Of a stretch of DNA of 64,000 nt, positions 57,397-64,000 are shown piece by piece. The stretch's first letter is position 1, and each line of letters starts with the position of its first letter. The position numbers and the translations under genes were made by a program. The notes beneath the pieces were generated by a model, which ran no database searches, had not been told where the DNA came from, and saw only the letters and a program-made list of their open reading frames with translations. This DNA comes from Bradyrhizobium quebecense (GTDB lineage Bacteria > Pseudomonadota > Alphaproteobacteria > Rhizobiales > Xanthobacteraceae): the NCBI RefSeq assembly GCF_013373795.3, contig NZ_CP088022.1, forward strand, positions 1,302,001 to 1,366,000, read 5' to 3'.

Positions 57397-58758
57397 ATGA
57401 CCGCCACCACCACCACCACCAAGCGCAGCAGCGTCATCCTCACCGACCGCGCCTGCCAGCGCCGCGTCACCAAGCGGACCAAGGTCTACGACCGCAAATG
57501 TCCGGGCCTCTACGCCTCCATCATCCCGGCAGGCACCGCGACCTTCAATTTCAAATTCACCGACAAGCAGACCGGCAAGCAGCGCTCCACCGTGCTGGGC
57601 ACCTATAACCCGGAGACCTTCACGGTCGATCACGCCCGCAGCAAGGTCTATGCGCTGAAGGGCCTCGGCTCGGTGGCTCTGGTCGAGCAACTGCGCCAGA
57701 CCAAGACGGAGCAGGAGGCGCGCAGCAAGACCGTTGCCGAGATCGTCGAGGAGCGAATCGAGTGGATGAAGACCAAGGTGCTCAAGCGGGATGGCGAGAT
57801 GCGGCCCCGGATCGAGAGCTGGGAGGGCGTCGCCCGCCATCTCCGGAACTTCATCGTCCCGCGCCTCGGCAAGAAACTGGCCTGCGACGTCACCAAGCAC
57901 GACATTGCGACGCTCTCCAACGACATCGTGGCAGGCAAGCACGGCGGCAAGGCGTCGGTAGCCAACGCCCGCCATATGCGCCGGGCGGCCTCCGGCCTGT
58001 TCAACTGGGCGGCGGAGGCGGGCCGCGACTACGTCAGCGCCAGCCCCTGCATCAACCTGCCGAAGCTCGACGATGAGTTTCCGCGCACGCGGGTGCTCTC
58101 GGCGGACGAGGTGCGAATTTTCTGGCATGGCCTCGACCGCAGCGACCTGCCGTGGGATTGCCGGACCTGCTTCGCGCTCAAGTTTGCACTGGCGACGATG
58201 CTGCGCTCGGGCGAACTGCTGCCGATCCACCGCGACGAGATCAACACCAGTGAGGGCACCGTGGATATCCCGGCCAACCGGGTCAAGAAGCGGAGGATCA
58301 TCAACCAGCCGCTGTCCGACCTCGCGCGGGAGATCATCACGGAGGCGATGGGCAATTACGACTATGCCTTCACCGGCCGGTTCGGCAACGCACCGCTGGC
58401 GCGGCAGGCGATGTCGAACGCGCTGAAGGGCACCAAGCGCAGCAACGGCAAGACCAAGACGCCCGGCATCTGCGAACTGCTCGGCCTCAAGCCGTTCACG
58501 CCGCACGATCTGCGCCGCACGGCGGCGACGATGTGCGGCAACCTCGGCCTGTCGGAAGCTGGCATCTCGCTCTGCCTCGACCATCAGGCGAGCAAGGACG
58601 AGCACGGCAAGCTGCTGCCAGCGGTCACGAACCGGGTCTACAATCTGGCGACGCGCGCTCGGGTGACCAAGAAGCGCGAAGTGCTCGACCCATGGGCAAT
58701 CGAGCTGCGGCGGATCGTCAGCGAGCCGGCGACGGAAGGGCAGCGGCTGGCGGCGTGA
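57397..58758 (+). CDS. tyrosine recombinase / phage-type integrase
   Basis: 453 residues. The N-terminal 100 residues have the arm-binding fold of P4-like integrases (VYDRKCPGLYASIIPAGTATF), followed by the core-binding domain (WEGVARHLRNFIVPRLG). Catalytic residues are in order: Arg in TMLRSGELLPIHRDE near residue 269, the H-x-x-R in FTPHDLRRTAATMC near 370-373, a histidine in LCLDHQAS, and the nucleophile tyrosine in RVYNLATR near 414. GGGAG lies 9 nt before the ATG. The gene marks the start of the region of tiny genes. No tRNA adjoins it, so the integration site is not a standard tRNA 3' end. Full length and probably active. Confidence 0.93.
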   Translation: MTATTTTTKRSSVILTDRACQRRVTKRTKVYDRKCPGLYASIIPAGTATFNFKFTDKQTGKQRSTVLGTYNPETFTVDHARSKVYALKGLGSVALVEQLRQTKTEQEARSKTVAEIVEERIEWMKTKVLKRDGEMRPRIESWEGVARHLRNFIVPRLGKKLACDVTKHDIATLSNDIVAGKHGGKASVANARHMRRAASGLFNWAAEAGRDYVSASPCINLPKLDDEFPRTRVLSADEVRIFWHGLDRSDLPWDCRTCFALKFALATMLRSGELLPIHRDEINTSEGTVDIPANRVKKRRIINQPLSDLAREIITEAMGNYDYAFTGRFGNAPLARQAMSNALKGTKRSNGKTKTPGICELLGLKPFTPHDLRRTAATMCGNLGLSEAGISLCLDHQASKDEHGKLLPAVTNRVYNLATRARVTKKREVLDPWAIELRRIVSEPATEGQRLAA

Positions 58759-60686: not shown

Positions 60687-60821
60687 AAATCGGGGATGTC
60701 CGCTTCCGAGAGCGGAGCGGACGCCTGCCCCCACGGCAGGGATGTCGCCTGGTGACCCAATCCGGACTTAGCGGCACGCTGCCCGACGCACACGTGCCGT
60801 AGGGCCGGACGCCATTCGTTC

Positions 60822-60835
60822 TTGATCCAAATCAA
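60822..60835. promoter_or_regulatory. FixK/FNR box 1 (exact)
   Basis: TTGATCCAAATCAA fits TTGA-N6-TCAA exactly with perfect TTGAT/ATCAA half-sites. At the class II spacing (-41.5) transcription to the right would start at about 60870, which is the first base of the 27-aa ORF. Confidence 0.62.
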
Positions 60836-60869
60836 CGAGCGGAACGGTAATGGTTCCAGCGTTCACAGC

Positions 60870-60953
60870 ATGAAATGGGACGGGATAACGATAGCCAGTT
60901 GCGCCACAATAGCATTTTCCGTGCTGATCCTAATTATGATCTTTATGATGTAG
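60870..60953 (+). CDS. 27-aa membrane peptide ORF (possibly leaderless)
   Basis: 27 residues: MKWDGITIASCATIAFSVLI followed by LIMIFMM. One membrane helix, short acidic/basic N-terminus. There is no ribosome site, but the FixK box at 60822 predicts a transcript starting on its ATG, so it could be a leaderless mRNA. A second 27-aa membrane ORF follows at 61048. Confidence 0.4.
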   Translation: MKWDGITIASCATIAFSVLILIMIFMM

Positions 60954-61047
60954 TCGGGCGCTCCCCTGCAAAGAGGAATAGTGAGCAATTTTGCTCAGAC
61001 GAGAGCCAAGCCGCGTGCTGATTTAGCAAGCACCGGAGGATTGCGCT

Positions 61048-61131
61048 ATGCCTGAGATTTTTTTCCGTATCGGCATTGTCGTGCTGGGACTTTGCCCGGT
61101 CGCCCTTTCTGCATTTGCTATGTTCATGTGA
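61048..61131 (+). CDS. 27-aa membrane peptide ORF
   Basis: 27 residues: MPEIFFRIGIVVLGLCPVAL then SAFAMFM, a single membrane helix with one basic residue. GGAGGA lies 7 nt before the ATG, the best ribosome site among the tiny ORFs here. It would be read from the FixK box at 60822. Very small hydrophobic proteins of this sort (CydX, KdpF) usually stabilise a larger membrane complex; which one is unknown. A 12-bp hairpin follows at 61169. Confidence 0.5.
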   Translation: MPEIFFRIGIVVLGLCPVALSAFAMFM

Positions 61132-61168
61132 CCACCTGGCCCGCCCCGCTCCAAACGGGCTGGTAGAT

Positions 61169-61219
61169 GGCCCCAGCAACTGCCTTACCCCTACACACGC
61201 CCCCAAGGTTGCTGGGGCC
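61169..61219 (+). terminator. 12-bp hairpin after the twin 27-aa ORFs
   Basis: GGCCCCAGCAAC (61169-61180) and GTTGCTGGGGCC (61208-61219) are perfect complements over a 27-nt loop. It carries the same GGCCCCAGC core as the repeats at 27833-28112. No T-run. Confidence 0.5.
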
Positions 61220-61276
61220 ACTCTCAGCAAGAGGCCGCCTCTCGGTTTCCAGCCCGAGACCTGCGCGGATTGCTTA

Positions 61277-61290
61277 TTGACCTAGATCAA
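61277..61290. promoter_or_regulatory. FixK/FNR box 2 (exact)
   Basis: TTGACCTAGATCAA fits TTGA-N6-TCAA exactly. TAATAA at 61316-61321 lies about where the -10 box of a class II promoter would be, with a predicted start near 61325, 71 bases before the 69-aa gene at 61396. Confidence 0.65.
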
Positions 61291-61395
61291 CACTCCGCCG
61301 GTCTATCGGATTGCCTAATAACGTGGTCGACAAATAGGCACACAGACCAGACAGCTTTTGCCGTTCACACAGTGTGACAACAGGGAGTGGGTGCA

Positions 61396-61605
61396 ATGAG
61401 AGCTTTTTCAATTGTCGGACTGCTGTTTGCAGCAGTGGTGTTGGCGACGGTTCCGGTCTCGCCGCAGGTGACACCGCGCGGCGTGGAGTTAAGCGTTGAT
61501 CAAGCGCAGGCCTACACGTACCGGCGCGCCCGCGTGACTGCGCGTCGTGTCGACCGTCGCGTGTACCGCCATACGCGTCGCGCCGTGCGGCGCGGTGTCT
61601 ATTAA
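61396..61605 (+). CDS. small exported arginine/tyrosine-rich protein
   Basis: 69 residues from the ATG at 61396, with GGGAG about 8 nt upstream. A signal peptide (MRAFSIVGLLFAAVVLATVP, cleavage near SPQ-V) is followed by a very basic mature part of about 45 residues with repeats of RR-R-V and Y-R-H (YTYRRARVTARRVDRRVYRH), ending RRGVY. It is preceded by an exact FixK box, so low-oxygen induction is likely. A basic, tyrosine-rich secreted peptide could bind nucleic acid, membrane or acidic polysaccharide; no function is known. Confidence 0.6.
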   Translation: MRAFSIVGLLFAAVVLATVPVSPQVTPRGVELSVDQAQAYTYRRARVTARRVDRRVYRHTRRAVRRGVY

Positions 61606-61619
61606 CAGAGCGCGATGGG

Positions 61620-61785
61620 CGCGCCTCGATCACTCGCCCGCGCCGACGAGGTGATTGAGTAAATCACTGCGGTTCGTGCATGTCGTTTGCTGCAGCGCAT
61701 GAGTCTGTTGTTGGCCCCATGGCGGACATTCGCCGAGACATCGTCGATGTCTGCTTTTGGGGGCAACGCGGACCAGCCGCACGCG
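61620..61785. repeat. fragment of a dispersed Bradyrhizobium-type repeat
   Basis: Read on the minus strand this stretch translates to strings such as SALPPKADIDDVSANVRHGA and IYSITSSARAS, which I recall as typical of spurious ORFs all over Bradyrhizobium genomes because they come from a repeated sequence. No second copy lies in this window, so the call is from memory. Confidence 0.4.
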
Positions 61786-61789
61786 GTCT

Positions 61790-61807
61790 TCAATGCCACC
61801 AGCGCTG
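61790..61807. repeat. 18-bp direct repeat, right copy
   Basis: Identical to 58775-58792. Here it is the 3' end of the 55-aa gene. Integrases often recombine into the 3' end of a gene and restore it, so the pair is a candidate att site about 3.0 kb apart. Confidence 0.45.
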
Positions 61808-61957
61808 TTGGAGCTTCTTGAGCAACTGCCGCAAGTCGTCAATATACTCCTCGATGTTGGCCCGCGCCTCGTCCATCTGCCACACCCGGCGCTTGCGCTT
61901 TGGCTTTGGCGCAGGCTTCGTTTTCGGCGGAGGTGGTGGTTCGTCGTCGCGCATCAT
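61790..61957 (-). CDS. 55-aa proline/lysine-rich small protein
   Basis: 55 residues: MMRDDEPPPPPKTKPAPKPK, a basic stretch, then an acidic-basic helix (MDEARANIEEYIDDLRQLLK) and the tail QQRWWH. No ribosome site is seen. The exact FixK box at 61991 would place a minus-strand start at about 61956, on the ATG, so this too may be leaderless. Its last six codons are the 18-bp repeat found next to the recombinase gene (58775). Function unknown. Confidence 0.5.
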   Translation of the reverse strand: MMRDDEPPPPPKTKPAPKPKRKRRVWQMDEARANIEEYIDDLRQLLKKLQQRWWH

Positions 61958-61990
61958 AGGTAAATCATCTCGCGACGAGATGAGGGGCCG

Positions 61991-62004
61991 TTGATGTGAA
62001 TCAA
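61991..62004. promoter_or_regulatory. FixK/FNR box 3 (exact)
   Basis: TTGATGTGAATCAA fits TTGA-N6-TCAA exactly. Being symmetrical it may serve either side: at -41.5 it would start transcripts at about 61956 leftward (55-aa gene) or 62039 rightward (54-aa pair at 62276/62464). Confidence 0.6.
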
Positions 62005-62275
62005 CAAGTTGAAGATGCGGATGGTTCTTGCTGCGCCGCTCACTACACGGGAGGGCCGCCCGGTCCGTATTGGCGAGGCCTGTGAATAGCCGGGCGCGTG
62101 GGCAATCGAGCTACCACGCGGATCGTCGGGGCGGCCGATGCTGAGATGCGGACGGCGGCGTCATGTGGAAGCGGCGCTGTCCTATATTTCATGCCGCGCT
62201 TAGCAATAAGCCTTGCGTCGCGTCAGCAATGGGAGGCTAGTGCTGGTATCAGCGCGCCACGCTATGGAGAGCGCC
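62005..62275. other. gap before the 54-aa gene pair
   Basis: 271 bases. The plus-strand frames that cross it have no ribosome sites and look random. A 24-codon frame at 62015 (start MRMVLAAPLTTREG) is too short to support. If box 3 drives the genes to its right, this is a 5' leader of about 235 bases. Confidence 0.3.
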
Positions 62276-62440
62276 ATGCAAAACTACATAAACCACGAAA
62301 ACATCAGGCGGTATCACAAACTCATCGCGGTCAGCGAAAGTAACCAGTGTCGCAACGAAGCGCGCCATGAAACGTTGTTGCGACTGCTGGCCGAAGAAAG
62401 AGCTAAGGACGTTGGGCCGGGTGGCTCGACGGAAGAATGA
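62276..62440 (+). CDS. 54-aa helical protein, first of a paralogous pair
   Basis: 54 residues from the ATG at 62276, 5 nt after GGAGA; an upstream ATG (62264) would add four residues. Two predicted helices, NHENIRRYHKLIAVSES and HETLLRLLAEERAK, joined by a short polar linker, and a Gly/Glu tail. The NI-x-x-Y-x-KL and L-x-x-EERAK patterns and the exact length match the next gene. It is not recognised outside this; small two-helix proteins of this sort occur in several copies in Bradyrhizobium. Confidence 0.6.
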   Translation: MQNYINHENIRRYHKLIAVSESNQCRNEARHETLLRLLAEERAKDVGPGGSTEE

Positions 62441-62463
62441 CGCATCGGTGCGTGGAGTTCTCC

Positions 62464-62628
62464 ATGGCGGACTTCATCTTCGAGGCGAACATCGCCCACT
62501 ACACAAAGCTTCTGACCGCAGAAACCGACGTCGGAAAGATAGCTATGATCCACAAGTTGATCGTGGAGGAGCGCGCCAAGCTAGCCGAGTGGCACGCTAA
62601 AAACCCAAGACCAAAAGCGGCAGAGTAA
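62464..62628 (+). CDS. 54-aa helical protein, second of the pair
   Basis: 54 residues from ATG 62464, with GGAG about 6 nt upstream; a longer frame starts inside the first gene's stop (62437). Helices EANIAHYTKLLTAETDV and IHKLIVEERAKLAEWHA, then a basic tail (KNPRPKAAE). It is the same length as its neighbour and shares NI-x-x-Y-x-KL-x(3)-E and L-x-x-EERAK. 23 bases separate the two genes. The stop lies within a symmetrical hairpin at 62615. Confidence 0.62.
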   Translation: MADFIFEANIAHYTKLLTAETDVGKIAMIHKLIVEERAKLAEWHAKNPRPKAAE

Positions 62629-62637
62629 ATGCCGCTT
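62615..62637. terminator. bidirectional hairpin between convergent small genes
   Basis: AAGCGGCA (62615-62622) and TGCCGCTT (62630-62637) are perfect complements over GAGTAAA. The loop contains the stop codon of the plus-strand gene, and the right arm touches the stop of the minus-strand gene. Confidence 0.65.
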
Positions 62638-62786
62638 CAGTTGTCTTCTGTGATCTTGCCCTTGCCGCCGCAAGTCTTACACTTGATCGGATAGATTTTG
62701 TGACCGGGCTTCGCCGACTGCATTACGGCCGGGAAGCCCGTTCCATTGCAGTGCGGGCAGATACGCTCTTTGATCTTCGTCTGCAT
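62637..62786 (-). CDS. 49-aa zinc-ribbon protein with DnaJ-type CxxCxGxG motifs
   Basis: 49 residues from the ATG at 62786, with AAAGG 6-7 nt upstream. Two CxxCxGxG motifs, CPHCNGTG (residues 10-17) and CKTCGGKG (about 36-43), make one zinc site like half of the DnaJ cysteine-rich domain, joined by a short loop (FPAVMQSAKPGHKIYPIK). It could be a free-standing thiol or zinc chaperone. It follows the 42-aa membrane gene after 33 bases and would share the FixK box at 63049. Confidence 0.7.
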   Translation of the reverse strand: MQTKIKERICPHCNGTGFPAVMQSAKPGHKIYPIKCKTCGGKGKITEDN

Positions 62787-62819
62787 ATTGAGCCTTTCTG
62801 GCCCCTCAGTGTTGGACCA

Positions 62820-62948
62820 CTAATTGTCAGGCGCGATCGCCGGCGGCAGCGGCTGCGTGGGCAGGATATCAGTATCAGTCTGATGCCCTCGCCACAGGGC
62901 AAGAACAAACACCAAGACGCCTGCGGTTATGATGATCGCCCCACGCAT
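62820..62948 (-). CDS. 42-aa single-span membrane protein
   Basis: 42 residues: MRGAIIITAGVLVFVLALWR, one membrane helix, then a periplasmic, proline-rich tail (HQTDTDILPTQPLPPAIAPD). AAGG lies 7 nt before the ATG. The exact FixK box at 63049 is 107 bases upstream (centre to ATG). First of a probable two-gene unit with the zinc-ribbon ORF. Function unknown. Confidence 0.55.
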   Translation of the reverse strand: MRGAIIITAGVLVFVLALWRGHQTDTDILPTQPLPPAIAPDN

Positions 62949-63048
62949 GCGAACACCTTGGACCCTCCGGCCAATACGCACAATTTGACAGAAGTCGAAG
63001 ACCGCCTCAGTGAGCTTTAAGCGTAGGCTATTGCTCGCAGGCCCCGCT

Positions 63049-63062
63049 TTGACTCTAATCAA
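63049..63062. promoter_or_regulatory. FixK/FNR box 4 (exact)
   Basis: TTGACTCTAATCAA fits TTGA-N6-TCAA exactly. At -41.5 a minus-strand transcript would start near 63014, giving a leader of about 66 bases before the 42-aa gene. Confidence 0.62.
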
Positions 63063-63151
63063 TAGCCCCAAGGCCAAAGTGTACTTGGCTTGAAGTTACT
63101 TGCGCGAGCGGGGCTGGGTTTTTCCCGGTCCCAATTTCAAATGCGTCAGCA

Positions 63152-63187
63152 GGGATCGCCAAGAATTTGAATACTCTTGGCGATCCC
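63152..63187. terminator. 13-bp perfect hairpin just left of the IS66 end
   Basis: GGGATCGCCAAGA (63152-63164) and TCTTGGCGATCCC (63175-63187) are perfect complements over a 10-nt A+T-rich loop. No T-run. It ends 7 bases before the IS66 left end. Confidence 0.55.
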
Positions 63188-63275
63188 GACGTTGGTAAGC
63201 GCTGTTCAGCGGCCACCTTCCGGATGACGGGGTGATCTGCGAGTCTGCGGTTCGGTTTGGACCGTTAGGCTTAGA

Positions 63276-63734
63276 ATGGACACAGAGCATAGTGCTATCA
63301 CGGAGCCGGTGCGGCGGCTTGAAGTCTTCACCGGAGCCGGCCGTCGGCGGAAGTGGAGCGATGGGGACAAGGCGCGGATCGTTGCGGAGATCGTGGCGAG
63401 CGGCGACTCGGTCTGTTCGGTAGCCCGACGGCATGGATTGTCACCGCAGCAGTTGTTTGGCTGGCGACGTCAGTTGCGAGAAGCAGCAGGCGGTCATTCC
63501 GCAATAGAAGAAGTACAGTTTGTGCCGGCGGTGGTGGATGCCGCGGTGCCGGCGCCCGCTGTTGACCGGGAGCGCAAAGCGGTGCGCTGCAAGGCCAAAG
63601 CGGATACCCGGGCTCGCCGTTGCGATGCCGGGATTATCGAGATCGAAGTCGACGGCATCATGATCCGGGCCGGTCGTGGTGCGGATACGACGATGGTTGC
63701 GTCGATTGTCCAGGCGCTGAAGGCGAGCCGGTGA
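63276..63734 (+). CDS. tnpA: IS66 family accessory protein TnpA
   Basis: 152 residues. A helix-turn-helix of the IS3/IS66 Orf1 type is at about 25-68: RRRKWSDGDKARIVAEIVAS, SVARRHGLSPQQLFGWRRQL. The C-terminal end IEIEVDGIMIRAGRGADTTM is the usual IS66 TnpA tail. It lies 81 bases inside the left end. Its stop overlaps the tnpB start (GTGA at 63731), the typical IS66 coupling. Confidence 0.92.
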   Translation: MDTEHSAITEPVRRLEVFTGAGRRRKWSDGDKARIVAEIVASGDSVCSVARRHGLSPQQLFGWRRQLREAAGGHSAIEEVQFVPAVVDAAVPAPAVDRERKAVRCKAKADTRARRCDAGIIEIEVDGIMIRAGRGADTTMVASIVQALKASR

Positions 63735-64000
63735 TCGGTCCGTCGGGTGCGGTCCGGGTGATGGTGGCGACCAAGCCGGTGGACTTCCGTAAGGGGATGG
63801 AAGGGCTCGCGACCCTGGTGCGCGAGAGCATGCGGGCAGATCCATTCTCGGGAGCTGTCTATGTGTTCCGGGCCAAGCGGGCGGATCGGATCAAGCTGGT
63901 GTTCTGGGACGGAACGGGTCTGTGCCTGTTCGCCAAGAGGCTCGAGGATGGGATCTTCCGCTGGCCGAAGATCGAGGACGGCGTGATGCGCCTGTCGGCG
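63731..64000 (+). CDS. tnpB: IS66 family accessory protein TnpB, 3' truncated by window edge
   Basis: 90 codons are visible from the GTG at 63731. The start VRVMVATKPVDFRKGMEGLA and then VYVFRAKRADRIKLVFWDGTGLCLF are the signature of the IS66 Orf2 family (usually about 115-120 residues), so only the last 25-30 residues are missing. It is needed for transposition together with TnpA and the DDE transposase TnpC that should follow. Confidence 0.93.
   Translation, partial: MIGPSGAVRVMVATKPVDFRKGMEGLATLVRESMRADPFSGAVYVFRAKRADRIKLVFWDGTGLCLFAKRLEDGIFRWPKIEDGVMRLSA

Follow-up and report, generated by a model that had tools for sequence, protein, structure and literature searches.

What controls the very small open reading frames (ORFs) that crowd the right end of this stretch of Bradyrhizobium quebecense DNA, and do they belong together? 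The window, by which we mean the whole 64,000 nucleotides analysed (contig NZ_CP088022.1, positions 1,302,001 to 1,366,000 of the forward strand), holds between 60822 and 63062 a row of ORFs of 27-69 codons set among palindromes of the form TTGA-N6-TCAA, which an initial annotation had taken for one low-oxygen regulon on an integrase-side island. We found that a gene for a FixK paralogue lies just beyond the window, and we consider it probable that the row represents the target side of a FixK module gained by lateral transfer, composed of this local FixK paralogue and a row of boxes before very small genes, and later split by an IS66 element.

A row of FixK-type boxes

The window contains exactly the four TTGA-N6-TCAA sites that had been annotated (boxes 1 to 4, Table 1) and no fifth. 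The claim that they exceed chance expectation was borne out by dinucleotide shuffles of the window (n=100), which gave a mean of 0.56 sites and a maximum of 3, none of the 100 reaching 4. Likewise, a random scatter of 137 sites (the exact number outside the island described below is 139) placed at least four within 2227 bp in 11 of 20000 simulations.

Genome-wide, the pattern occurs 166 times in 9.17 Mb and the same pattern read backwards 36 times. Twenty-seven of the 166 sites fall within the 58 kb of C1:144816-203276, which is the expected micro-oxic island; the seven genes checked there encode a COX1-type oxidase subunit, FixG, a heavy-metal P-type ATPase, Hsp20, two CBS proteins and a Usp protein. 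Because 27 copies sit in this fixG/oxidase/Hsp20/CBS island, we read the motif in this genome as a FixK-type box, and this identity, already proposed for the four sites, fits the FixK paralogue with its own box that adjoins the cluster. TTGA-N6-TCAA is also common to FNR-type proteins.

Scored with a matrix derived from the 27 island boxes, boxes 1, 2 and 3 reached 20.7, 22.5 and 19.2, within the range of the island boxes (16.5-23.2, these being scored by the matrix built from them), and their inner bases are island-like. Random N6 in the same matrix gave a mean of 14.3 (standard deviation 3.5). Box 4, at 14.5, stands at this random level and below all 27 island boxes, and therefore matches the core and no more, so that matrix scoring sustains three of the annotated sites and not the fourth. 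We rank box 2 as best supported, box 1 as fairly, box 3 as moderately and box 4 as weakly supported. Moreover, box 2 is followed by a -10-like element (ATTGCCTA) that is kept in this genome's own paralogue of A and in genomes G070 and G124.

A FixK paralogue beyond an IS66 insertion

The genome's best match to HTH_Crp_2 (C1:1368799-1369020) lies inside a gene at C1:1368364-1369029, corresponding to window coordinates 66364-67029, 2.4-3.0 kb to the right of the window end. Its product carries HTH_Crp_2 (6.2e-19), cNMP_binding (1.4e-12) and Crp (5.2e-12) domains, and its nearest solved relative is FixK2 (4i2o, E 6.6e-63), with which the recognition helix stretch LGLTLETVSRALS is identical in the alignment. 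We take L195, E196 and R200 to be the DNA-contact residues of FixK2. Against NF050806, the Caulobacter FixK equivalog, the local regulator scored 214.9 bits, under the cut-off of 300, and at the position of FixK2 Cys183 it has a serine in place of the redox cysteine. A C183S FixK2 resists oxidation (PMC9104804). Judging from these features, the local regulator is a FixK paralogue, for which FixK2-like redox control is not implied.

We considered whether the missing Cys183 sets this protein apart and rejected the idea, since serine is also the commonest residue in other fixK genes (27/30); a cysteine occurs there in 3 of these 30 and in none of the 24 members of the clade described below (two of them read by eye).

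A fifth box lies at window coordinate 66109, upstream of the paralogue, and the IS66 element separates the gene from the box cluster. Simple arithmetic, with the element and one target-site duplication subtracted, leaves about 545 bp between box 4 and box 5 and gathers the five boxes into some 2.8 kb. Elsewhere in this genome, a second set (C1:2939.8-2942.7 kb) comprises a regulator 75% identical to the local one, three boxes, a second secreted protein and a copy of A that is 94% identical.

A clade of FixK paralogues with predicted box control

In a comparison of 98 genomes of the genus, FixK-like genes (E 1e-30) occurred in 96 and the closer type (67-76% identity) in 20, this genome included. 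In a tree of 55 rows, the closer type forms one group of 24 with support 100/100, which takes in both island regulators as well as the copy on the genome's own 187-kb contig. The consensus TTG(A/C)-N6-(T/G)CAA was found within 300 bp before the aligned start in 22 of the 24 clade genes versus 0 of 30 other fixK genes, whereas a reversed-motif control gave 0/24 and 2/30; eight of the 24 have the exact TTGA-N6-TCAA within the same distance. Because of this difference (22/24 versus 0/30), the clade regulators are predicted to be under FixK control themselves. A single internal stop was noted in the clade, in the plasmid copy of G070.

We also looked at what accompanies these regulators. The gene for V, another secreted protein, lies within a few kb in 8 of the 20 fetched clade loci, joined in 5 of these by A2, a secreted relative of A, and the full-length A2 genes beside clade regulators have a box at -74 to -77 in 5/5 cases. 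Furthermore, genes 67-69% identical to the local regulator are found on five Bradyrhizobium plasmids. The B. barranii plasmid is typed as conjugative, and the small hypothetical proteins beside its fixK gene have no match to A-H; a plasmid search with A returned no match.

As a separate observation, a double-fixK locus is conserved (L214, L216-L219), in which an ordinary fixK, a box, A2, V and then a clade fixK follow one another within about 5 kb.

Coding status of the very small ORFs

Coding selection was judged from pairwise counts of the ratio of nonsynonymous to synonymous changes (dN/dS) against homologues. The ratio was 0.06-0.21 for B (10/10 homologue rows) and, where defined, 0.08-0.24 for C, 0.16-0.54 for D and 0.15-0.34 for G; because these values point to purifying selection, we regard B, C, D and G as genuine genes. 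F, with 0.15 and 0.20 against two distant copies and 0.50-1.00 against three others, is likely a gene, and A (0.25-0.77) is supported as one by its many homologues, which number 378 in a large protein collection that holds five for C. H (0.45 and 0.26, from partial matches) and E, where alignment gaps made dN/dS uncountable, are uncertain as genes. By eye, a Shine-Dalgarno sequence is present before A, B, C and G and absent before F and H.

The AlphaFold model of C (mean predicted local distance difference test score 89.8; helices 2-19 and 23-46) predicts with good confidence a two-helix hairpin. D, with two CXXCXGXG-like knuckles, is the sole Pfam match among A-H, reaching PF00684 exactly at the cut-off (32.7 bits). 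In this it resembles the DnaJ CXXCXGXG zinc ribbon and anti-TRAP, from which it differs in being a free-standing protein of 49 amino acids with no J domain and in scoring far below the cut-offs of the NCBIfam anti-TRAP and DnaJ models. None of A-H, nor their relatives A2, V and the G-like peptide, reached any NCBIfam cut-off.

The ORFs behind the boxes exist as initially described, but box 3 (61991) is 285 bp from B and ends 33 bp before H, a minus-strand ORF that had gone unmentioned. Because B has a conserved promoter-like block of its own and lies that far away, box 3 more likely serves H; as a promoter of B it is unlikely at 285 bp.

Table 1. Features at the right end of the window (window coordinates; aa, amino acids; TM, transmembrane segment)
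Feature	Coordinates	Strand	Description
Box 1, FixK-type	60822..60835		exact TTGA-N6-TCAA; upstream of F and G
F	60870..60953	+	27-aa single-TM peptide; ATG one base past the transcription start that box 1 would give; by eye, lacks a Shine-Dalgarno
G	61048..61131	+	27-aa single-TM peptide; strong Shine-Dalgarno; family conserved in the genus
Box 2, FixK-type	61277..61290		exact TTGA-N6-TCAA; upstream of A
A	61396..61605	+	secreted basic protein of 69 aa, signal peptide judged by eye; family without a name
Interspersed repeat of the genus	61633..61778		not part of the module; many short high-identity matches (query positions 854-999)
H	61790..61957	-	55-aa ORF; ATG exactly at the transcription start expected from box 3; gene status weakly supported
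Box 3, FixK-type	61991..62004		exact TTGA-N6-TCAA; divergent, between H and B
B	62276..62440	+	54-aa helical protein; own conserved promoter-like block directly upstream
C	62464..62628	+	54-aa paralogue of B, starting 23 bp downstream of B
D	62637..62786	-	zinc ribbon of 49 aa, DnaJ_CXXCXGXG-like; present in multiple copies in the genus
E	62820..62948	-	42-aa membrane peptide upstream of D
Box 4	63049..63062		core match only; matrix score weak
IS66 element	63195-65701 (63187..64000 in window = left duplication and element start)		DDE_Tnp_IS66, 2.2e-103
IS66 target-site duplications, 8 bp	left 63187-63194, right 65702-65709		CGACGTTG
Phage-type integrase bordering the island	57397..58758	+	PF00589, 4.4e-16

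Conservation of the boxes before homologous genes

Boxes were counted within 400 bp upstream of homologues, with the window's own copies, antisense low-complexity matches of A, two own-genome B/C matches with E above 0.1 and two partial own-genome G matches inside long frames left out. A remote A locus in G142, which has no BLAST match, stands outside all counts, and its 125 upstream bases have no box by eye.

The box was kept best before the A2-type secreted relatives, where 6 of 7 rows and three of the four remote rows have one; its position is -74 to -80 in eight loci. For A itself, the distance from box 2 is matched in the own paralogue and in G070, and in G124 the box and the -10-like element are still present, followed by a different small secreted gene. 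The sequence of box 1 and its 34-bp spacing before F recur in G070 (L094), and G049 (L099) has a variant at a similar position, meaning that one G070 copy of F/G and that of G049 retain box 1 upstream. A box was also found in 4 of 13 homologue rows of C and in 1 of 2 of H, and the C paralogue in the genome's own micro-oxic island starts 338 bp after a box.

Within this genome, 3 of 9 family members outside the window have a box (the A paralogue, C1:162195 and C1:3765437), compared with about 0.07 expected from 166 sites, one of the three, C1:162195, lying within the box-rich island. Moreover, nine other A loci contain 16 boxes in 55.8 kb when 3 kb on either side are taken, or 0.287 per kb versus 0.018 genome-wide, with 0 for the reversed control. 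Four boxes were counted within this distance at B. erythrophlei GAS478, four also at one of the two B. barranii 1S5 loci and none at the other; three of the nine A loci lack boxes.

On the other hand, a number of results weigh against the module that we propose. Close homologues of A have a box in 3 of 9 loci (the own paralogue at -119, G070 at -118, G122 at -125) and lack one in G053, G152, G124 and three named loci. The corresponding fractions are 2/5 for F (box 1 being absent before the other three rows), 3/12 for G, 2/10 for the other homologues of B, 2/8 for V, 0/2 for E (exact box) and 1/37 for D, where some places are listed twice and the one positive is a 13-residue partial match. A conserved promoter-like block lies directly before B in the other genomes aligned, and box 4 scores at the random level. 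Neither A2 nor V is near the regulator in 12 of the 20 fetched clade loci, and box density is lower at clade loci (0.170 per kb) than around 20 ordinary fixK genes (0.258 per kb), for which reason we rejected box clustering as a mark of the clade. An exact box does stand at -319 before one ordinary-type fixK of this genome, just beyond the 300-bp count. Finally, the local regulator has no ATG at the homologous start position, and a TTG start was assumed.

Retention of the box before homologues is mixed, high for A2 and partial or absent for the other families, and the proposal of one regulon is partly supported. Boxes 1 and 2 are partly kept before A, A2 and F/G, but we reject a single regulon for B, given its own conserved block, and doubt it for D and E, given their box-less homologues and the weak box 4.

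Six box-less G genes (L098, L100, L101, L103, L104, L109) have the motif TGGCACAAACTGCACTTTGC or close variants about 80 bp upstream, which is absent from the window copy. This motif may be another promoter, and the G gene seems to have been rewired. A sigma-54 promoter was considered and rejected, as the spacing disagrees with the consensus.

Predicted promoter geometry and possible leaderless starts

In B. diazoefficiens, FixK2-dependent transcription of nosR begins at two sites, 40.5 bp and 67.5 bp away from the axis of the box (PMC5582078). Applied to boxes 1 to 3, the 40.5-bp rule predicts starts at 60869 (F begins at 60870), at 61324 (72 bases before A) and at 61957 on the minus strand, the first base of H. 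An H-like ORF in G011 (L129) shares the 33-bp spacing and has no Shine-Dalgarno sequence. This geometry, within one base of a predicted transcription start, and the absence by eye of a Shine-Dalgarno sequence fit F, H, the F of G070 and the H-like ORF of G011. In B. japonicum, 320 starts lie 0-10 bases before start codons, 192 of them exactly at them (PMC4842269). We infer that, under class II geometry, transcripts would begin at the start codon of H and one base ahead of that of F, giving leaderless mRNAs.

In G011, a FixK-like gene matched in two pieces, and possibly broken, lies 2.4 kb from the B/box/H arrangement (L129:7268-7926).

Proposed mechanism and alternatives

Drawing on what the sequence offers, namely the boxes, the regulator, its clade, the partial conservation and the coding selection, we propose how binding, induction and leaderless starts might be connected. 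At low oxygen, a FixK2-type protein, either the cell's own FixK or the local one or both, would bind the boxes and act as a class II activator. Box 2 would then drive the secreted protein A, box 1 F and G, and box 3 H and perhaps B-C, the role of box 4 being doubtful. The products include secreted, membrane and zinc-ribbon proteins, and another cluster of the G and C families in this genome has a cbb3-subunit-like cytochrome c beside it; as far as type and neighbours can tell, the envelope or the respiratory chain would be their most likely place of action when oxygen is low.

More tentatively, and as a conjecture we would currently not bet on, the clade may represent portable low-oxygen modules, each a box-controlled regulator with a local set of very small secreted or membrane proteins likewise under box control, that move on integrase islands and conjugative plasmids and plug into the host FixLJ-FixK2 system. 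Some members would carry leaderless micro-genes, the FixK box lying at just the distance that puts the transcription start on the ATG.

A serious competitor, which we rate as quite possible though short of probable, is that the box cluster is partly chance or relic, with only boxes 1 and 2 working and B, C, D and E independently regulated and gathered on a recombination-prone island. This would agree with the weak box 4, the promoter block of B and the box-less D and E elsewhere, as well as with the finding that the window modules match different genomes piece by piece. It is harder to reconcile with the C paralogues that recur near boxes, in the micro-oxic island among other places, and with the rarity of such clusters in the scan simulation (11/20000).

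Boxes 1-3 could also be ordinary targets of the chromosomal (putative) FixLJ-FixK2 system, the local FixK paralogue being a passenger or decaying and contributing nothing. We think this rather unlikely. Speaking against a passenger are a clade (at least 67% identity) found in 20 of 98 genomes, our own included, with one internal stop noted, a FixK-type box kept in 22 of 24 of its genes, and an unchanged recognition helix in the local regulator. Nonetheless, FixK2 has a nearer relative elsewhere in this genome (4i2o, E 9.5e-82), the local regulator is seemingly TTG-started and cut off from the cluster by the insertion, and three other FixK paralogues of B. diazoefficiens went undetected as proteins in micro-oxic cells (PMC6515984).

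Binding by some other CRP/FNR protein (NnrR, or FnrN/AadR type), with nitrogen oxides or full anoxia as the cue, appears improbable, since the regulator closest by is of FixK2 type and boxes 1-3 look like those of the oxidase/fixG island, even though the micro-oxic island has an FnrN/AadR-type candidate 40% identical to the local FixK, 22 of the 25 HTH_Crp_2 matches in the genome exceed the family cut-off and TTGA-N6-TCAA is the general site of FixK-type proteins (PMC5582078).

Relation to known systems

The FixK module proposed here resembles the FixLJ-FixK2-FixK1 regulon of B. diazoefficiens in its consensus, TTG(A/C)-N6-(T/G)CAA, and its FixK2-like activator. In that organism, the CRP/FNR genes fixK1, bll2109, bll3466 and nnrR lie under FixK2 (PMC9104804). 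Unlike the FixK2 regulon as described in the available parts of the literature, the arrangement here has a FixK paralogue adjoining closely spaced boxes that precede very small genes, on an island bordered by an integrase. The paralogues Bll2109, Bll3466 and Bll7696 are FixK-like too; their transcripts are micro-oxically induced and their proteins were not seen (PMC6515984). Our clade may include some of them. It differs from what the accessible text of that report tells of them, where targets go unmentioned, in being partly tied to small secreted proteins and in occurring on plasmids.

Literature titles and the beginnings of abstracts yielded no FixK-linked set of very small proteins, a weak absence given that the regulon study of Mesa 2008 is not covered, and the available portion of a small-ORF study of USDA 110 mentions FixK2 once (PMC5082802). 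The FixLJ-FixK2-FixK1 cascade and the FixK2-dependent CRP/FNR genes are thus known, and what we add is a local, physically linked candidate target set. If correct, it would give low-oxygen-induced FixK paralogues, as far as the published record at hand describes them, assigned and directly testable targets. It would also open a way into the study of very small secreted and membrane proteins which, D excepted, have no Pfam or NCBIfam match, in a genus whose nitrogen-fixing life depends on low oxygen.

Island context and neighbouring features

The integrase side of the proposed island was confirmed by the phage-type gene listed in Table 1. A DUF5906 gene, which we take to be primase-like, lies to the right, and these two genes mark the stretch as a genomic island. 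The GC content of 60780-63110 is 0.575 versus 0.642 in the first 57 kb.

Three further observations concern the families found here. A third cluster of this genome (C1:3764003-3765595; L182, about 9.0-10.6 kb) contains a box and genes for a G-like peptide, two C-like proteins and a small cytochrome c resembling a cbb3 subunit. In G108, G120 and G138, too, genes of G and C type stand together near boxes. A G-type single-TM peptide of 29 aa lies 69-139 bp downstream of fixK in 3 of 20 ordinary fixK loci (L237, L238 and L239, from G082, G027 and G088).

The repeat at 61633-61778 has short near-identical matches across many genomes of the genus and yields several spurious-looking ORFs. Elsewhere in the window, 36685-36842 matches the known Bradyrhizobiaceae small RNA BjrC80 with 135 bits.

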